Source: Acetivibrio thermocellus ATCC 27405 (GTDB taxonomy: Bacteria; Bacillota; Clostridia; Acetivibrionales; Acetivibrionaceae). Taken from it: a DNA stretch of 64,000 bases. The stretch lies in NCBI RefSeq assembly GCF_000015865.1, contig NC_009012.1:1488001-1552000 (forward strand). Direction: 5' to 3'. Of the stretch, positions 6,001 to 62,275 are shown piece after piece. Position 1 is the first letter of the stretch. Every line of letters starts with the position of its first letter. The notes beneath the pieces are model-generated. The model was not told the origin of the DNA and ran no database searches. It saw only the letters and a program-made list of their open reading frames with translations. A program made the position numbers and the translations under genes.

Positions 6001-9000
6001 ATCCAAATGTGAATCAGGAATCCATGTAATGGAAGCCTTCGAATTATCCATGCTCTTTACTTCAATAGTAGAGCTTCCAATTTTACTCCATTCTCCCTGA
6101 TTTTCAATATAGAAATCAACTCTTCCCTCTGCTTTTGCATAACCCAAGTTTTTAACTGTGCATATTATTTCAGCCTGTCTGTCATATGCGGGCACTTGCG
6201 GGTTTGCCTCCACACTTACGATGGTAAGGTCACTTAATGCTGAAGGAACAGAGGAAACCTGGTTGGATTTTCCACTCTCATTACCCGCGCTATCCACCGC
6301 AGTGACTACATAATAGTATATTTTGCCATCTTCAAGTCCTTTATCCGTATACACAAGGGACTTTGTTCTGGTCACTGCTTTAAAGTTCCCTCCACTTTCC
6401 GTAGCTCTATATACAACATAATGATCCACGTCGTCTGACTTGCTTCTTTCCCACGACAACTGGAGCTCTCCTCCAACTTTAGGATCTACAACCTTAAGGC
6501 CTGAAGGAGTTTGGGGAGCTTCTCTATCCACAATGTATTTCTTAATTAATGATGCCTCCTTATTTCCTTTGTTTACTGCTGTTGCCCGTACAGCATATGT
6601 TCCGGATGCAAGACTTGAAACATTCCAAATGCAATTGGAAACAAAGTAGTTTTCCCCTACTCCTATCTCAGGAAGTTCCTCTCCCTTCAATATTCTCTCG
6701 AGGAAGTCTTCCAAATCATATACTTTGCCCGGTACAGGAGAAGAATCTTCCCCAATCAAATGCCATGTCTCATCTCCGTCCACACCGCTTGACGGCGAGT
6801 CTCCCAAATAAGCATATTCATATATGACACTGACGCCCACCGCATCACTTATTACCGTCTCAATCTCAAGCGTACTGTTGGTTCTTGAAAGTTCCGCCGG
6901 TTTCATACTGAATATAAGCGGACTGGATGTCTGATGAAGCGCTCTTATGTCAATGCCCTCACTTATATTCTCATCTTTTGAATAATCATAAGTTCTTTCA
7001 CTTTCCCTGCCCAAATCATTTACTACCGAAACGGCATAGAAGTACTCTTTCTGCGGATCTCTCATTGTATCTATATATACATTTGATGTTGTATTGCTGA
7101 CTATCTTCTCCCAGGTTCCTTCTCTTCCCTCTTTTCTATACAAAACATAGTATCTGAAGTCAGGCCTTAGCACCGGTGACCAACTTACAACAAGCTGCCA
7201 CTCCCCTGCCTGTACATATAAATGCTCCGGCGGTGAAGGCGGATCGTTTGCCAAAAGATATGTATGAATCTTTTGTGAAAAGTTTCCTGCAGCATCACTT
7301 ACCATAACCCTTACTTGATAATAGCCGTCCGGATAAAGTTCCTCTCCTTCCGGGCCTGTTGCCAAAGTATCCCATTTAACCTGTACTTCATTCTTTCCGG
7401 GATTCTGGACATCTGCGATAGGCGTCCATTCACCATCTCCTATTGGATTACCGTTTTCATCCAAAGGCCTGAATTGGAAAGAATACATATTTACTTCCAA
7501 ATTATCTTTCGCATATGCTGTAAGCGTAACTCCACTTCTTATGGAAGAGCCGTCTTCCGGAGTAAATTTGATTATCTGAGGAGGTGTTGTGTCACTTCCC
7601 GGCCTTGCGCTTACTATATTCGAAGCCTCACTTTCATTCCCAAGCATGTCAACTGCTGTAACTTTGTAGAAACTATCCACATCAAGAGGAGCCGCAGTAT
7701 CTGCGTAAGAGAAATCCATAGTGTTTTCAATCAGTTCAAAGGTGTCTTCAGCACCGCCTTCAGTACTTCTATAAACCCTGAAATGGTCAAAATCCTCAGC
7801 CTTCACAGAAAGTTCCCATTCCAACAACACTCGTAACTCCGACGAACTTGCTTTAAGCACAGGTGCAGCCGGGGGAGTATTGTCCACAGTGTATTCTGAA
7901 ATAAATTCACTAATGTTGTCGGATGTATCACTTACAACTACTTTGACATAGTACAAACCGTCAACAAGCTCTTTTGTATTCCAATTTACAGAACCTGTGG
8001 TTGTTGCACCAATGCTTTCCCATGTTCCTTCTTCCTTATTGGAGGTAAACAAGAATTCCATAGCTTTAATCTTTACATTGTCAGAAGCTAAAACACTCAA
8101 CCTTGTTTCACCGTTCACACGGCTTCCGTCTGCCGGAACCATTCCGACAATAACAGGCGGTGTAATGTCAGGCAAAGGTTCCACTGCCTGACTTGTTGAA
8201 CCGGAACTTTCATTTCCATATATATCCACAGCCTTTACCATGTATATATATGTGTTACCATATAGAACATTGCTGTCAGTATACGACATTAACGCAGATT
8301 CATATATAAGTTCATAATCATGACCGTTTTCACTTCTGTAAAGCCTGTATTTCACAATATCGCTGTCATCCACCTTTGACCAGACAACATCTATCTTTCC
8401 TTCTCCGGCAACAGCCTCAATTTGCACCGGAGCCGCGGGCAGTACCAAGGTAACAGTCAAAGGTTGGCTTTCTGCAGAATAATTTCCTGCCATATCATAA
8501 GCTTTTACAGAATATGTATAGCTATGATCCTTGGTAACTTTCTTATCAATAAACAGGTTAGTATCAGACGTCCCAACCTCTATGCCATCCCGGTATATTT
8601 TATATCCTGCAACTTTTACATTATCTGTTGATTTGTCCCATGTGAGAGTAATAGAGGATTCAGATTTCGAAACCACTCTCAAGTTGCTAGGTGCGGACGG
8701 TGGTTCTGCATCTGAAGCCGCTACCACTGTGATACTTTCACTTTCAGGTGAAACGTTACCTGCATTGTCATAAGCTCTTATTATATAAATGTAAGTTTCA
8801 TCAGGAGTTAACCCTGTATCCGTAAACTTATTTCCTGTGACGTTTCTTATATGGACACCGTTACGGTATATTCTGTATCCGGCTACTCCTATATTATCCG
8901 TAGATTCAGTCCATTCGAGAGAAACTGAGGTTGTTGTTACAGATGTCACAAAAACGTTTTCCGGGGCCGTAGGCGGCTGATTGTCAAATACAACGGTATT

Positions 9001-11055
9001 ACTAACATCAGATACATTTCCTGACGCGTCGAAAGCTTTCACGTAATAACTGTAAGTTCCGGGTTCCAAATCGTAATCGGTATACCTTGTATTAACTGTA
9101 TCTGCAATATTAACTCCATTTCTATAAATTTTATAGCCTGTAACTGCAGCATTATCTGTTGAAGCTGACCATGTCAAAGTCACAGAAGTGTCGGTTCTCG
9201 AGCTTATGCCAAGATTTTTAGGTGCCGTAGGAGGTTCATTATCAACATCGGTTCTGACTTTGACAGCTTCACTAAAGTCCGACAAATTCCGGACTGCATC
9301 ATAAGCTCTGACAGTATACGTATACTCAGTATTGGGAACCAACCCATGGTCTATATAGCTTAAAGTTCTGGAATTTCCTACCCTGATACCGTTTCTGTAT
9401 ATTTCATACCCTTCCACATTCACATTATCTTCAGATGTATCCCATTGCAACGTCACAGTGGTTAAAGTTTTTGAAACCACCTGCAAATTCGTTGGAACAC
9501 TCGGAGGTTCACTGTCTATGACTTCTTCTTTAATAATATTCCAAAGAGGACTATGGCTGAAAATATATCCACTTTCCAAAGGCTTGGTTATAATCAATTC
9601 ATTAAATCCCGAATCCCCAGGATGAGTAAATGTAACTCTTTGCAGACTTTCACCGCTTAAAATCGTCTTATGAGTACCTGTTGCCCTGAAATTTGAGCTT
9701 GAGGAAGAATCACCCTTTTGTGTAAAATCCCCTTTAACTTCAAGAATTCCTGCTGTAAGATAAGAAGCATGGCTGTAATAACTTTGAGTTACAAAGTCTC
9801 TGCCAACCCTGACATAATCCTCTTCATTATTCATTCTTAAATATCCATAACATCTCCCATACTCAAAGGTACCATCCGCTTGATAATTTCTGCTCTGTAT
9901 TCTATAACTGCCTTCTACAAGAAGCTGACCTTTGTTTATATACATGGTACCTCCGCTTTGTATGAGATTTCCTCCCACCGAGAGCTTATATCCGTTCAGG
10001 TTAAGTATTCCATCGTTTAAAAACAGGCTTCCTTTTATATTTATATCTCTTACAAGAGTACGGTTGCCATCAATACACAGGTCATAATCCCAAGTATCCC
10101 AGTTTATTGCCGTATTTGTACCAATACATAAATATTCTCCTCCTGCTACAGGCGTGGACGTATATTTTAACGCTCCATTGACAAAAACCTTTGATGTAAA
10201 TCTGACACCTTTATCTGAAGAGTTTGTTATTTCAAGTATATTAATACAGGATCCTGACCCGGAAGAACTTTCGAAAGTTACTATTTGTAACTCTTCACCA
10301 CTTAACACAACTCTATGATTTCCTGTAGCTTTAAAGTTGTCATACGAATTATACCTTTTTTGTGTGAAATTGCCTTTCACTTCCAAAGTACCGTCTGTAA
10401 GGTAATTGGCATGACTATGTTGACTATAAATCAAAAAGTCTCCCTCTACCTTCAGATAGTCAGTAGGTTTTGTCATCTTCAAGTATCCGTTGCTATACAT
10501 ATTTATTGTCTGACCGTTACTTGAAGGAATTTCCGTTTGAATCCTGTAATCGCCTTTTACTGTCAGGCATCCGCCGTTTAAATCTATAACGCCTCCTGAT
10601 TGTATTAAATCCCCGTTAACTGTAAGATTAAATCCATTTAAATCCAGTACTCCTGCACCTATATAAAGATTTCCCGTATACTCCTCGTCCGCTGACAGCT
10701 TCCAGCCTCTTTTCTGCTCTCCCGGAAATTTTATCACACATCCATTATCTATGAAAGTATTCGCGTTTAAAGGTTGATTAAATTCCACCCCATCTTCCGA
10801 ATAGTTCCTTAATTCAAGTATGTTAAACCGGGATTCCGCTGTCTCAAAACTTACTTTCTGCAGCTTCTCTCCGCTCAATATAGTTTTGTGCTTCCCTGTC
10901 GCGTAAAAATTATCCCTTGCCCCGGAACCCGATAAATATTTTTTCTGTATAAAATCTCCCTTTACCTCCAACACTCCGTCCGTAAGACGGCTTGAATGGC
11001 TATAGTACGACTGTGTTACAAAATTCCCTTCCACGCAAACATAATCATTCTCCTT
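1..11055 (-). CDS. Giant surface protein, main body (FN3/CARDB/PKD), C-terminus off window
   Basis: Frame stays open from about 11055 to the window edge, over 3,680 codons. Reading from the N-terminal side I see: the rest of three ~200-residue repeats (to ~9520); about eight fibronectin type III domains between ~9515 and ~6240 with PPxxP starts, TW/SW strands and YxIYRxG motifs, interleaved with Ig-like TPP domains (~8175-7890, ~7610-7250); CARDB-like domains at ~6240-5920 and ~5655-4330 (openings such as PDLIVSDIQW, PDLNISDVQW); a PKD domain at ~5920-5660; MG2-like and NEW3-like beta domains (~3960-2990); a carboxypeptidase-regulatory-like domain (~2970-2700); a second PKD (~355-110, WDFGDGE); and another CARDB at the edge. 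No enzyme domain is visible. Such architectures belong to secreted adhesins and scaffolds. The anchor (SLH, dockerin or sortase signal), if present, lies outside the window. This frame has no start of its own; it continues the 11016-11777 reading frame after a frameshift. Confidence 0.85.
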
Positions 11056-11310
11056 CTCATGTAAAGATATCCGTCGCTACCACTATATGTTACTTGACCT
11101 TGCGCATTTACACTTTCCTTTTGAATTCTATAATCTCCTTTTACGATGAGCTTCCCACCATTTATATTTAAAGTGCCGCCGGAATGTATAAGGTTTCCCT
11201 CTATCGTCAAATTATAGCCGTTAAGATTAAGACTTCCGCTTTCGAGATATAAATCCTGATATATTTTATCTTCAAATAAAGCCATATTTGAATTAACACG
11301 AATTGATTCC
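9520..11310 (-). repeat. Three tandem ~200-residue beta-rich repeats in the giant protein
   Basis: Three consecutive units at about 11310-10770, 10770-10150 and 10150-9520 share an ordered set of motifs: LNLNGYNLTIEGNLI-like, a GG-L-VKGDYRIQ strand, GYLxM, DYVxVEGDF, SHxxYLTDGxLEVKGDF, NFxATGxHKxxLSGExLQ and FNxLEL. Their regular short strands suggest a beta-solenoid or stacked-sheet module. I do not recognise a named family. The units vary in sequence, which suggests old duplications rather than recent slippage. Confidence 0.75.
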
Positions 11311-11777
11311 CTAAGAGTTGTAACTACAAGTGTATTGCTGGGCGCTGAAACATTTCCGGATTCATCCACTGCTCTTACCGTAAAACTATATTGCGTAAAA
11401 GGTAAAAGACCGGAAACGGTACATGATGTGTTTTCTCCATACACAGCTTGTACAACTGAAGAACCATTATATATATTATAATAGCTTACGCCTGTATTAT
11501 CTTCAGCCGGAGACCATGACATCGATACCGTTGAACTTGTTTTGGATATCAACTGAAGATTGGCAGGTGGCTTCGGTGGTTCAATGTCCACCGGTATATC
11601 ATCATAAGTTTCAATTTTTTTGTATACTGATTCTGCAACCGATTCACCGGAATCAATTTGTTCCTTCTCAGCATAGACTTGTTGAATCCGATATGGAAAA
11701 AAAGAAGGCACATCAAACGTCATACCAATAAGCAAAACAACCAAAACAATTGCTACGCATCTGTTAAACTTTCTCAC
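11016..11777 (-). CDS. N-terminal part of the giant surface protein (frameshifted)
   Basis: GTG start at 11777 behind a GGGGGGAT ribosome site. Residues 1-36 form a Sec signal peptide (hydrophobic VAIVLVVLLIG core, QVYA cleavage region). Residues ~66-155 are a fibronectin type III domain, followed by the first copy of a repeat with NLNGYNLTIEGNLI and KLIVKGDYRIQ strands. The frame then runs into a spurious tail and stops at 11016. Translation in the next frame from 11055 resumes the repeat (KENDYVCVEGNF), so this is the 5' end of the gene covering 1-11055. Whether the break is a real mutation, an assembly error or recoding cannot be settled here. If real, the cell would make a 253-residue secreted fragment. 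Confidence 0.85.
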   Translation of the reverse strand: MRKFNRCVAIVLVVLLIGMTFDVPSFFPYRIQQVYAEKEQIDSGESVAESVYKKIETYDDIPVDIEPPKPPANLQLISKTSSTVSMSWSPAEDNTGVSYYNIYNGSSVVQAVYGENTSCTVSGLLPFTQYSFTVRAVDESGNVSAPSNTLVVTTLRESIRVNSNMALFEDKIYQDLYLESGSLNLNGYNLTIEGNLIHSGGTLNINGGKLIVKGDYRIQKESVNAQGQVTYSGSDGYLYMRRRMIMFAWKGIL

Positions 11778-57649: not shown

Positions 57650-57692
57650 AAGGGGTATATGGCTTTGCATATATCCCTTGTTTTATTTTCAA
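57650..57692 (+). terminator. Terminator after the serpin gene
   Basis: AAGGGGTATATG-GCTTTG-CATATATCCCTT hairpin followed by GTTTTATTTTC, ~50 bases beyond the serpin stop. Confidence 0.75.
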
Positions 57693-57716
57693 CTTCATTT
57701 TAAAAAAATCAAAATT

Positions 57717-57745
57717 CCCAACCCAAACTTGCCATATGTTTCGTA
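57717..57745 (+). promoter_or_regulatory. Candidate SigI-type promoter for the GH43 gene
   Basis: CCCAACCCAAA (57717-57727), 14 bases, then CGTA (57742-57745), about 80 bases before the GH43 start. SigI promoters are reported with C-rich/AAA -35 and CGWA -10 boxes. The gene is next to sigI5-rsgI5, which makes regulation by that pair plausible. Confidence 0.5.
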
Positions 57746-57811: not shown

Positions 57812-59863
<2,052 letters not shown>

Positions 59864-59913
59864 GTATTCATTATTTTGGTTTTTACAATTCAATATATTT
59901 TTTAAACGATGCA

Positions 59914-59962
59914 TTTTATACTCGGGCATAAAAACCATGCCCGGGTATAAAATCAATTTTTT
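59914..59962 (+). terminator. Terminator after GH43 gene
   Basis: TTTTATACTCGGGCAT-AAAAACC-ATGCCCGGGTATAAAA, a 16-pair stem, followed by TCAATTTTTTATTT. It separates GH43 from sigI5. Confidence 0.85.
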
Positions 59963-59994: not shown

Positions 59995-60732
59995 ATGCTA
60001 TTTGTTTCTGCTATTATAGATTATGCCGGTGAAACAGCAACTCACATTGTTGAAAAAATCAAAAACGGGGACAAGCATTTAAAAGAAAAGTTCATTAAAG
60101 ATTATATCCCGTTTATATTAAATATTGTTTCAAGCTTCTACTCTTCAAAAACAGGAGATCTAAAAAGCAGCGATGAATATAGTATTGGCTTGATGGCCTT
60201 TAATGAGGCTATCGAAAAATTTGATGTTAATAAAAGCAAAAGTTTTCTCAAATTTGCAGAAATGGTTATAAAAAAGCGAATGATAGACTATTTTAGAAAA
60301 ACATCCTCAATCGGCAGAAAAGAAATCCCTTTTTCCTATTTTAACAGCAATAACGAAACTGAATTTAGAAAAAAAATAAATAACCTTGACATCGAAGAGG
60401 AATTTAACAGTTATGAATTTATTTGCGAATTAAGGGACTTTTCCAAAAAACTTGAAAGCTTTGGACTTAGCATAAACAATTTGCCTGATTACATGCCCAA
60501 ACACAAAGACTCAAGAGAAATGTGCATAAACATAGCCAAAAAAATAGTTGAAAACAAGAGTATTTTTGACAAATTAAAGACAAAAAAGTACATACAGATG
60601 AAAGAGCTTTCCAAAATAATTGATGTTCATCCAAAGACCGTTGAAAGAAACAGGGCTTTTATCATATGTTTATGTATATTATTTGATAATGATTATGGAA
60701 ACTTTAAATCGTATTTAAATAAAATATTTTAA
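59995..60732 (+). CDS. sigI5: RNA polymerase sigma-I factor (SigI5 type)
   Basis: 245 residues. Sigma-70-like region 2: IVEKIKNGDKHLKEKFIKDYIPFI, DEYSIGLMAFNEAIEKFD, FLKFAEMVIKKRMIDYFRK. SigI-specific C-terminal domain with a helix-turn-helix: MKELSKIIDVHPKTVERNRAFI. GAGGGAAGAG precedes the ATG. In C. thermocellum SigI factors control cellulosomal genes in response to polysaccharides sensed by partner RsgI. The RsgI gene follows by 97 bases. The number 5 is assigned from the CBM42 partner, from memory of the published set. Confidence 0.92.
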   Translation: MLFVSAIIDYAGETATHIVEKIKNGDKHLKEKFIKDYIPFILNIVSSFYSSKTGDLKSSDEYSIGLMAFNEAIEKFDVNKSKSFLKFAEMVIKKRMIDYFRKTSSIGRKEIPFSYFNSNNETEFRKKINNLDIEEEFNSYEFICELRDFSKKLESFGLSINNLPDYMPKHKDSREMCINIAKKIVENKSIFDKLKTKKYIQMKELSKIIDVHPKTVERNRAFIICLCILFDNDYGNFKSYLNKIF

Positions 60733-60829
60733 TAAATAGAAATTTTATGGACCAAAAAGTACTTTCAAACACGAAATTATTAAATAGAGATATTCAATAT
60801 GTGCAACGGGCACTTTTCGGAGGGTAAAA

Positions 60830-62275
60830 ATGAAACACAAAGGCATTGTATTAAAGCTGACAAAAAGCAAAGCCATAATAAGTACCAATGATTTTCAATG
60901 CTACTATATCAAAAGAAGCCCTACAATTTATGTAGGAAAGGAAGTTGAATTTACAAATAAAGATATTGTGACAAAGAAGTCTGTTTTAATAAAACCGGCT
61001 TTAAGCGTTGCCTGTTTTATATTGTTGATAGCTTGTGTTTTAAGCCTTTCAAAAATAATCAATAATATTAGCCCTAAAGTTTTTGCCTATATCAGCGTTG
61101 ATATAAATCCCAGCTTTGAAATTGAAATCGATGACATGGGAAATGTTTTGAATTTGCTTCCGTTAAATGATGATGCAAAGGTTATTGCCGATAAATTGGA
61201 AATTGATAAAATCAACGTTTCCAATGCCATTGATATTATAATAAATGAAGCAATAAAAAGCAATGTTATAAATGAAAATGAAAAGGACTTTATATTAGTT
61301 TCAAGCACCCTGAATATTAAAAAAGAGGAGAACAGCCAACAGTATCAGAGTGAAAAAGAAAAACTTGATATTATCATAAATTCCCTGAAAGACAGCATAG
61401 AAAAAAGCGGAAAAGCGGATGTTTACATTGTCCAGGCTGACGTGAATGAAAGGGAAGCCGCACGAAGTAAAGGAATATCTACAGGAAGATACGTTTTATA
61501 TAACAAGTATAAAGATCTGGAAAACGATCTGTCTTTGGAAGATGCCAAAGATGCTGATGTCAATGTGTTAATAAAAAGTATGTTGGATGTGGCATCAGAA
61601 GAAAGAAATCCGGAAGAATCACCAAAAATGACCCCAACTCCAACACCGACACATACAGCAACACATACACCGACAGATGCACCAACGCCGAAACCGGCAA
61701 ATACACCAACATCAACACCGGCAGCAAAACCTTCACCAAAAACGGCATCGAACTCAGCCTCGACATCAACACCTGCCCCGAAACCTACATCAACACCGAC
61801 ACCAACATTGATGCCAACACCTACTCCAACACCGACACCTGCTGATAAAATCGCATATGGTCAGTTTATGAAATTTGAATCCAGCAACTACCGCGGATAT
61901 TATATACGGGTTAAATCGTTTTCCGGCCGTATCGACCCATATGTGAATCCTGTGGAAGATTCCATGTTCAAGATAGTTCCCGGTCTTGCAGACCCAAGCT
62001 GTATTTCTTTCGAGTCGAAGACTTATCCGGGATATTACCTCAAACATGAAAACTTCAGAGTTATTCTTAAAAAATATGAAGATACCGATTTATTCAGAGA
62101 AGATGCAACTTTCAGAGTTGTACCGGGTTGGGCGGATGAAAACATGATTTCTTTCCAGTCATATAATTATCCTTACAGATATATCAGGCACAGGGATTTT
62201 GAGCTTTACATAGAAAACATAAAAACCGATCTTGACAGAAAGGATGCAACATTTATAGGGATTAAAGTTGATTAG
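60830..62275 (+). CDS. rsgI5: Anti-sigma-I factor with CBM42 sensor (RsgI5 type)
   Basis: 481 residues, GGAGGG before the ATG. Cytoplasmic RsgI_N domain 1-50; one transmembrane helix ~56-78; extracellular conserved region with YISVDINPSFEIEI, whose Asn93-Pro94 corresponds to the self-cleavage site described in clostridial RsgI proteins; a helical domain to ~250; a Thr/Pro-rich linker ~265-345; and a C-terminal CBM42 (AbfB-like beta-trefoil, ~346-481) with three repeats around KFESSNYRGYYIR, SFESKTYPGYYLKH and SFQSYNYPYRYIRH. Binding of arabinose side chains of arabinoxylan would release SigI5. Product of the neighbouring GH43 acts on the same substrate class. Confidence 0.94.
   Translation: MKHKGIVLKLTKSKAIISTNDFQCYYIKRSPTIYVGKEVEFTNKDIVTKKSVLIKPALSVACFILLIACVLSLSKIINNISPKVFAYISVDINPSFEIEIDDMGNVLNLLPLNDDAKVIADKLEIDKINVSNAIDIIINEAIKSNVINENEKDFILVSSTLNIKKEENSQQYQSEKEKLDIIINSLKDSIEKSGKADVYIVQADVNEREAARSKGISTGRYVLYNKYKDLENDLSLEDAKDADVNVLIKSMLDVASEERNPEESPKMTPTPTPTHTATHTPTDAPTPKPANTPTSTPAAKPSPKTASNSASTSTPAPKPTSTPTPTLMPTPTPTPTPADKIAYGQFMKFESSNYRGYYIRVKSFSGRIDPYVNPVEDSMFKIVPGLADPSCISFESKTYPGYYLKHENFRVILKKYEDTDLFREDATFRVVPGWADENMISFQSYNYPYRYIRHRDFELYIENIKTDLDRKDATFIGIKVD

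Follow-up and report, generated by a model that had tools for sequence, protein, structure and literature searches.

A candidate SigI5-dependent promoter in front of the GH43 gene Cthe_1271 of Clostridium thermocellum and its possible role in sigI5 expression

The gene Cthe_1271 of Clostridium thermocellum, which encodes a GH43-CBM6-CBM6-dockerin protein, is preceded by a SigI-type promoter which, judging from the comparison of related genomes, is probably used by SigI5, the sigma factor encoded directly behind this gene. The promoter as such is already in print: Table 2 of PMC4711584 (2016) predicts it for Cthe_1271/Clo1313_0987, letter for letter identical to the site described here, without attributing it to any SigI factor. 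The present analysis proposes that it belongs to SigI5 and has a role in the autoregulation of sigI5; judging from literature searches, this assignment and the reading as an operon are both new. No reported SigI5 target was recognised in these searches, which covered the open-access literature in part. The signature, its conservation, its co-occurrence with SigI5, the agreement between sigma factor residues and promoter bases, and the gene order were computed directly; binding by SigI5, read-through into sigI5 and the inducer are what we infer.

The Cthe_1271 locus and its relatives

The window, i.e. the whole 64 kb stretch of DNA analysed, comprises positions 1,488,001–1,552,000 of the 3.84 Mb C. 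thermocellum genome (G000 in the comparisons below). A hairpin lies between a serpin gene and the promoter motif, after which the GH43 gene, sigI5 and rsgI5 follow on the plus strand (Table 1). The motif, CCCAACCCAAA followed by 14 bases and CGTA, is matched exactly and only once in the window, even with 2 mismatches allowed (0.14 matches expected from shuffled sequences), and it shows the AAA tract, the 13–14 base spacer and the CGWA of the SigI promoter consensus taken from PMC4711584. The GH43 start codon lies 78 bases 3′ of CGTA, so the sequence-only reading, which had placed the motif about 80 bases before the gene, had its position right.

Table 1. Features of the GH43-sigI5-rsgI5 locus (positions within the window)
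Feature	Position	Strand	Basis
Terminator-like hairpin between serpin gene and promoter	57650..57679	+	12-pair stem, then T-rich tail; hairpin scan with matches near chance in number (6 found, 4.4 expected)
ATT immediately 5′ of the -35 element, SigI5-type extension	57714..57716	+	ATT counts over signature matches
-35 element CCCAACCC-AAA, region of specificity and A-tract	57717..57727	+	Identical to PMC4711584, Table 2
-10 element CGTA	57742..57745	+	Sequence match; PMC4711584
GH43-CBM6-CBM6-dockerin gene Cthe_1271, proposed target	57824..59863	+	Domain scan, PDB match
Hairpin of 17 pairs plus T-run between GH43 and sigI5, proposed as partial terminator	59913..59953	+	Fold energy, hairpin scan
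sigI5	59995..60732	+	Reading frame, domain scans
Codon of SigI5 K94 (SigI6 R97 by alignment)	60274..60276	+	Residue number counted by eye
Codon of SigI5 A221, -35 recognition helix	60655..60657	+	Alignment; residue number counted by eye
Separate SigI-type promoter of rsgI5 (ATGGACCA-AAA-N14-CGAA)	60747..60775	+	Sequence; SigI6-activated in B. subtilis
rsgI5, anti-sigma factor with C-terminal AbfB (CBM42) sensor	60830..62275	+	Domain scan

Domain scans find GH43, two CBM6 stretches and a dockerin in the Cthe_1271 product, sigma-70 region 2 in SigI5 (SigI subfamily in NCBIfam), and RsgI_N, RsgI_M and a C-terminal AbfB sensor in RsgI5, which makes the two latter a SigI-RsgI sigma/anti-sigma pair. 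This agrees with the earlier description of a GH43-CBM6-dockerin gene beside a SigI/RsgI pair with a CBM42 sensor, the name CBM42 for AbfB being that of published papers. The best solved-structure match of the enzyme is PDB 5a8c/5a8d, followed by 3c7e-type GH43 entries, and its second CBM resembles CBM6 modules of xylanases. These structural relatives point to arabinoxylan debranching as its probable activity.

Orthologues of SigI5 occur in 15 of the 60 relatives (best match 62–90% identity); together with that of C. thermocellum, the 16 sequences form a 100/100 clade separate from six paralogues. A recognisable promoter precedes the GH43 gene in 8 of 10 SigI5-bearing species (GH43 orthologues of at least 83% identity), in strict form in G000, G003, G004, G005, G011 and G017, and in near form in G002 (CCCACC, 13 bases) and G040 (CCTAAC, found by eye after the regular search had missed it, while SigI5-less genomes were searched by pattern only). 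In G011, the signature is present even with the GH43 gene on another contig than sigI5. None of eight GH43 homologues (63–75%) in SigI5-less genomes carries the signature, nor do six further homologues (45–52% identity). The promoter is therefore present with SigI5 and absent without it, except that the GH43 genes of G007 and G009 show no signature although these genomes bear SigI5.

A second comparison concerns the promoters of sigI5 itself. Among 14 SigI5-type copies outside the GH43-sigI5 arrangement, nine have an upstream self-promoter of one kind, approximately ATT-CC[C/G]AACNNAAA-N13/14-CG[T/A]A, found with patterns that required CC (or a C), an A-tract and CGNA but left the AA[C/T] core free. 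The bearers are G002, G007, G008, G009, G010, G011, G017, G040 and the G031 copy on contig C75. No self-promoter was found for G006, G012, the second G017 copy and two more G031 copies, the upstream region of the third G031 copy being inspected by eye only. The C75 copy stands 415 nt behind a GH43 homologue and has its own promoter within that gap; the homologue shows no site in the ~220 nt upstream, which reach to the contig end. Of the copies devoid of a self-promoter, one in G031 is preceded by araA and the second one in G017 by araB-araD. At locus L098 (G031, 6981–11336), a SigI5-type copy adjoins genes for L-arabinose isomerase and transketolase, and at L094 (G017, 6372–11453) genes for ribulokinase, AraD and GH43.

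The -35 and -10 elements of the Cthe_1271 site resemble these self-promoters in alignments and by rank. A matrix made from the nine self-promoters places Cthe_1271 first among the 40 published C. thermocellum promoters, followed by Cthe_2197, xyn10Y, the GH30 gene Cthe_3012 and Cthe_2137, with Cthe_0015 eighth; the Fisher values computed along with it treat related genomes as independent and are descriptive only. CGTA is found in the promoters of Cthe_1271, 2197, 2137 and 0015 (PMC4711584).

Expression of sigI5 and rsgI5

According to the literature, sigI5 has no predictable promoter (PMC4711584), and 5′-RACE for the gene failed (PMC6056542). It directly follows the GH43 gene in five genomes (G000, G001, G003, G004, G005), with no SigI-type site of the sought kinds in the gap of any of them, hence the GH43 promoter probably doubles as the autoregulatory promoter that has been missing for sigI5. 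On gene order and gap sequences, we incline towards co-transcription of sigI5 from this promoter. Within C. thermocellum, the 137-nt gap region gives a z of -3.94 for a hairpin fold, and the 17-pair hairpin with its T-run can be aligned between G000, G004 and G005. It is not found in G003 or in G001, where only ~70 nt separate the two genes. With a hairpin in some species only and no promoter found in the gap, we think that sigI5 is fed by read-through.

The same hairpin could stop transcription before sigI5. SigI5 would then drive GH43 here, with sigI5 having a promoter of another type, possibly a housekeeping or otherwise unrecognised one, and the hairpin ending the GH43 transcript. This alternative deserves to be taken seriously, although we think it rather less probable than co-transcription: the hairpin with its T-run in three species is what speaks for it, but G003 and G001 are without such a hairpin, a sigma-70 scan yields no plus-strand site inside the gap, and the 2016 and 2018 papers (PMC4711584, PMC6056542) report neither a promoter nor a start site for sigI5.

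The architecture of SigI5/RsgI5 is that shared by SigI-RsgI pairs of cellulosomal clostridia, and an N-terminal fragment of RsgI5 is degraded by ClpXP in vitro (PMC12203970). Unlike in other such pairs, 97 nt lie between sigI5 and rsgI5 and contain a promoter of rsgI5 that is activated by SigI6 in B. subtilis (PMC4711584), and sigI5 stands behind an enzyme gene. The rsgI5 promoter looks, by eye, conserved in G003 (TGGACGAAAA..CGAA, locus L035, 3′ of sigI5). Sensor and sigma factor may for this reason answer to different signals, and activation of rsgI5 by SigI6 would couple the arabinose sensor gene to xylan sensing. The sequence-only reading needs to be corrected in three respects: its promoter had been printed in 2016, the direct test of SigI5 in B. 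subtilis had been negative, and the same promoter may also transcribe sigI5, with rsgI5 having a separate one that SigI6 activates.

Assignment among the SigI factors

The main obstacle to the assignment is a negative reporter test. When SigI1–SigI6 were tested in B. subtilis (PMC6056542, 2018), SigI5 activated none of the 40 predicted promoters, in a screen that ran without a known SigI5 target as positive control. The site might be a real SigI promoter used by another paralogue, most likely SigI3 or SigI6, its place beside sigI5 being incidental. SigI3 also reads CGTA, and its promoters (sigI3, pl11, ce12; PMC4711584) have the A-tract, the 13–14 base spacer and CGTA in common with Cthe_1271; however, SigI3 prefers CCC two bases before the A-tract, where Cthe_1271 has AAC (bases -5 to -3), while the core in sites of the present kind is CCCAAC further upstream, often after ATT. 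The promoters of SigI6 (xyn10Z, xyn11B, xyn10Y and others; PMC4711584) have a similar -35 element, and the SigI6-activated xyn10Y has the identical core CCCAAC, but they carry CGAA instead of CGTA, and SigI6 fails to recognise a CGTA mutant of the sigI6 promoter in the Bacillus system. Of the 40 promoters predicted in 2016, SigI3 activates four and SigI6 ten, Cthe_1271 being in neither set (PMC4711584), and the signature tracks SigI5 across species. Use by another paralogue appears unlikely to us.

The third -10 base may be read by a defined residue. R97 of SigI6 contacts the third base of CGNA and wedges the duplex open; this base is suspected by the authors of contributing to specificity, and section 8 of their paper states no residue rule. 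We compared 86 SigI paralogues other than SigI5 (80 of those in the relatives and six from C. thermocellum). Candidate promoters had to show C at -7 or -6, AAA, 13–14 bases and CGNA at most ~420 nt from the conserved core, and 41 of the 86 paralogues had no candidate under this filter and were left out. In the remaining 45, residue 97 and the third base pair as R with A (34/34, one of these loci also having a farther CGTA candidate), H with C (6/6) and S with T (4/4). The pairing holds in 44 of 45, the exception being one K97 with CGAA. Within the SigI5 clade, T accompanies K or S in G000, G002, G003, G004, G005 and G010, and A accompanies R in G007, G008, G009, G011, G017 and G040; G006 departs from this, with R in the sigma factor but CGTA at the neighbouring GH10 gene. 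CGAA also occurs at several GH30 and xyn10Y sites of K-type genomes; these sites may belong to SigI6. According to the tree, the residue changes follow clades, so that few independent events underlie these counts.

By this rule, the CGTA readers among seven aligned C. thermocellum factors (SigI1–SigI6 and SigI8, with SigI7 left out) would be SigI3 (S) and SigI5 (K). We regard it as evenly balanced whether residue 97 (R; H; S or K) sets the third CGNA base (A; C; T) and SigI5 is a portable arabinose-sensing module with a changing neighbour enzyme. If residue 97 does so, a one-base change can pass a gene between sugar-sensing sigma factors. The xyn10Y genes keep a SigI5-like -35 element, their -10 element being CGTA in some species and CGAA in others.

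Residue 222 (SigI6 numbering) was also considered as a code for base -6 and was rejected. SigI5 orthologues with A have C at -6 and those with E, R or K have G, but three other SigI proteins that carry E222 do not follow this pairing, and G at -6 is also seen at some GH30 sites of genomes whose residue is A.

Gene context of the signature and the proposed module

It is hardly credible that the motif arose by chance and does not act as a promoter. It is kept before GH43 in several species, including G011 with its separate contigs, and fits the published consensus (PMC4711584). Raw counts taken alone could be read otherwise. The genome scan proposed in the sequence-only reading was run: the loose form CCCA-N18-21-CGTA is not enriched (155 matches, 178 in the reversed control), and such loose scans were dropped as evidence. 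For the tight form CCCAMYNNAAA-N13-14-CGTA, the 3.84 Mb genome has 3 matches versus 1 in the control; the three are the published promoters of Cthe_0015, Cthe_1271 and Cthe_2197, on which the pattern was modelled, so this excess is partly circular. Over 17 genomes, the strict signature CCSAAYNNAAA-N14-CGWA has 51 matches, barely more than the 41 of the reversed control, and was discarded as evidence by count alone.

Gene context and ATT do separate the groups. Of the 51 strict matches, 29 stand before sigI5 or a gene for a cellulosomal enzyme, as opposed to none of 27 control places examined; the number falls to 28 if L164 is left out, the xyn10Y gene of C. thermocellum, which has 1.85 kb between site and reading frame. 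The control places derive from 41 matches (30 of these became loci, 27 were matched by script). Without the 11 sigI5 or GH43-orthologue matches that shaped the pattern, the proportion is 18 of 40. The enzyme genes are GH43, GH2-CBM6, GH10 of xyn10Y type, GH30-CBM6, a CBM35-dockerin protein and others; some were labelled by similarity or by the same gene elsewhere (GH2 at L148, L152, L157 and L167; GH43 at L146, L150, L159 and L176; GH10 at L140). A Pfam scan of the next genes at ten control places found none cellulosomal, one glycosyltransferase and one fucose-isomerase-like. ATT, which was not part of the search pattern, directly precedes the -35 element in 25 of the 29 matches and in 4 of the 22 others. 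With ATT included, C. thermocellum has 3 matches, as has its reversed control, and the 17 genomes have 49 versus 13, of which 12 are one repeat family in G040.

This family, ATTCCCAGCTTAAAAACCC..CGTA at G040:C1:6753209-6854056, forms six inverted pairs ~2.4 kb apart and looks like a repeated element, not promoters. One chance-type match with identical flanks in three species (L139, L142 and L161 in G012, G005 and G004) suggests a shared mobile or highly conserved stretch. At L173 (G031, 501–2280), a full ATT-type signature lies 150 nt upstream of a response regulator that has an AraC-type domain. At L164 (1090390–1094918 in C. thermocellum), the published xyn10Y promoter stands ~1.85 kb before the reading frame, although the leader is given as 277 nt in PMC4711584; an insertion between them is likely.

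The enzyme beside sigI5-rsgI5 varies: GH43, GH10 or GH10-GH62, and araA or araBD genes in distant relatives. Behind rsgI5, genes with the signature or its near form encode GH43 (G002), GH10 (G006, G010, G012) and a GH10-GH62-CBM6-dockerin protein (G008, L095, 11518–14607); GH30 (G001, G003) and GH43 or GH127 (G031 copies) also occur in this position. AbfB is kept in 16 of the 17 scanned frames of RsgI5, the one without it being a broken one from G004 (L081, 7168–8653). There, rsgI5 falls into two frames, perhaps through an error in the draft sequence, perhaps through a genuine break. Hemicellulase genes with the signature lie beside sigI5-rsgI5 in several species, and the species comparison supports the compact module of the sequence-only reading, whose target would have been exchanged over time.

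Several observations count against use of the site by SigI5 besides the reporter test: the failure of 5′-RACE for sigI5, the exceptions to the residue rule and its few independent evolutionary events, the five SigI5-type copies without a self-promoter, the GH43 genes of G007 and G009, the raw counts near control, and Cthe_1271 being unchanged (1.5-fold) on pretreated poplar versus cellobiose (PMC3990059). The earlier idea of sensor, sigma factor and target in one module nevertheless appears likely from the shared self-promoter signature, the co-occurrence with SigI5 and the residue/base agreement, with the B. subtilis test standing against it. Based on the domains and the RsgI literature, we hypothesize that RsgI5 holds SigI5 until its CBM42 meets an arabinofuranose-bearing polysaccharide, whereupon RsgI5 would be cut and SigI5 freed, following the general RsgI mechanism. 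SigI5 with RNA polymerase would then read ATTCCCAAC..AAA-14-CGTA and transcribe the cellulosomal arabinoxylan enzyme GH43. Transcription would probably run on into sigI5, partly stopped by the hairpin, which would keep the sigma factor level below that of the enzyme and make the site an autoregulatory promoter as well.

As SigI5 recognised no promoter in the 2018 screen of SigI1–SigI6, a concrete set of candidate targets, consisting of Cthe_1271, 2197, 2137, 0015 and perhaps xyn10Y, together with predictions for single residues, brings its regulon within reach of experiment. The reason why no promoter of sigI5 was found may be that it lies one gene upstream. The finding bears on the separation of paralogous sigma factors, on SigI factors as orthogonal switches, and on the control of arabinoxylan enzymes in a biomass-degrading organism.
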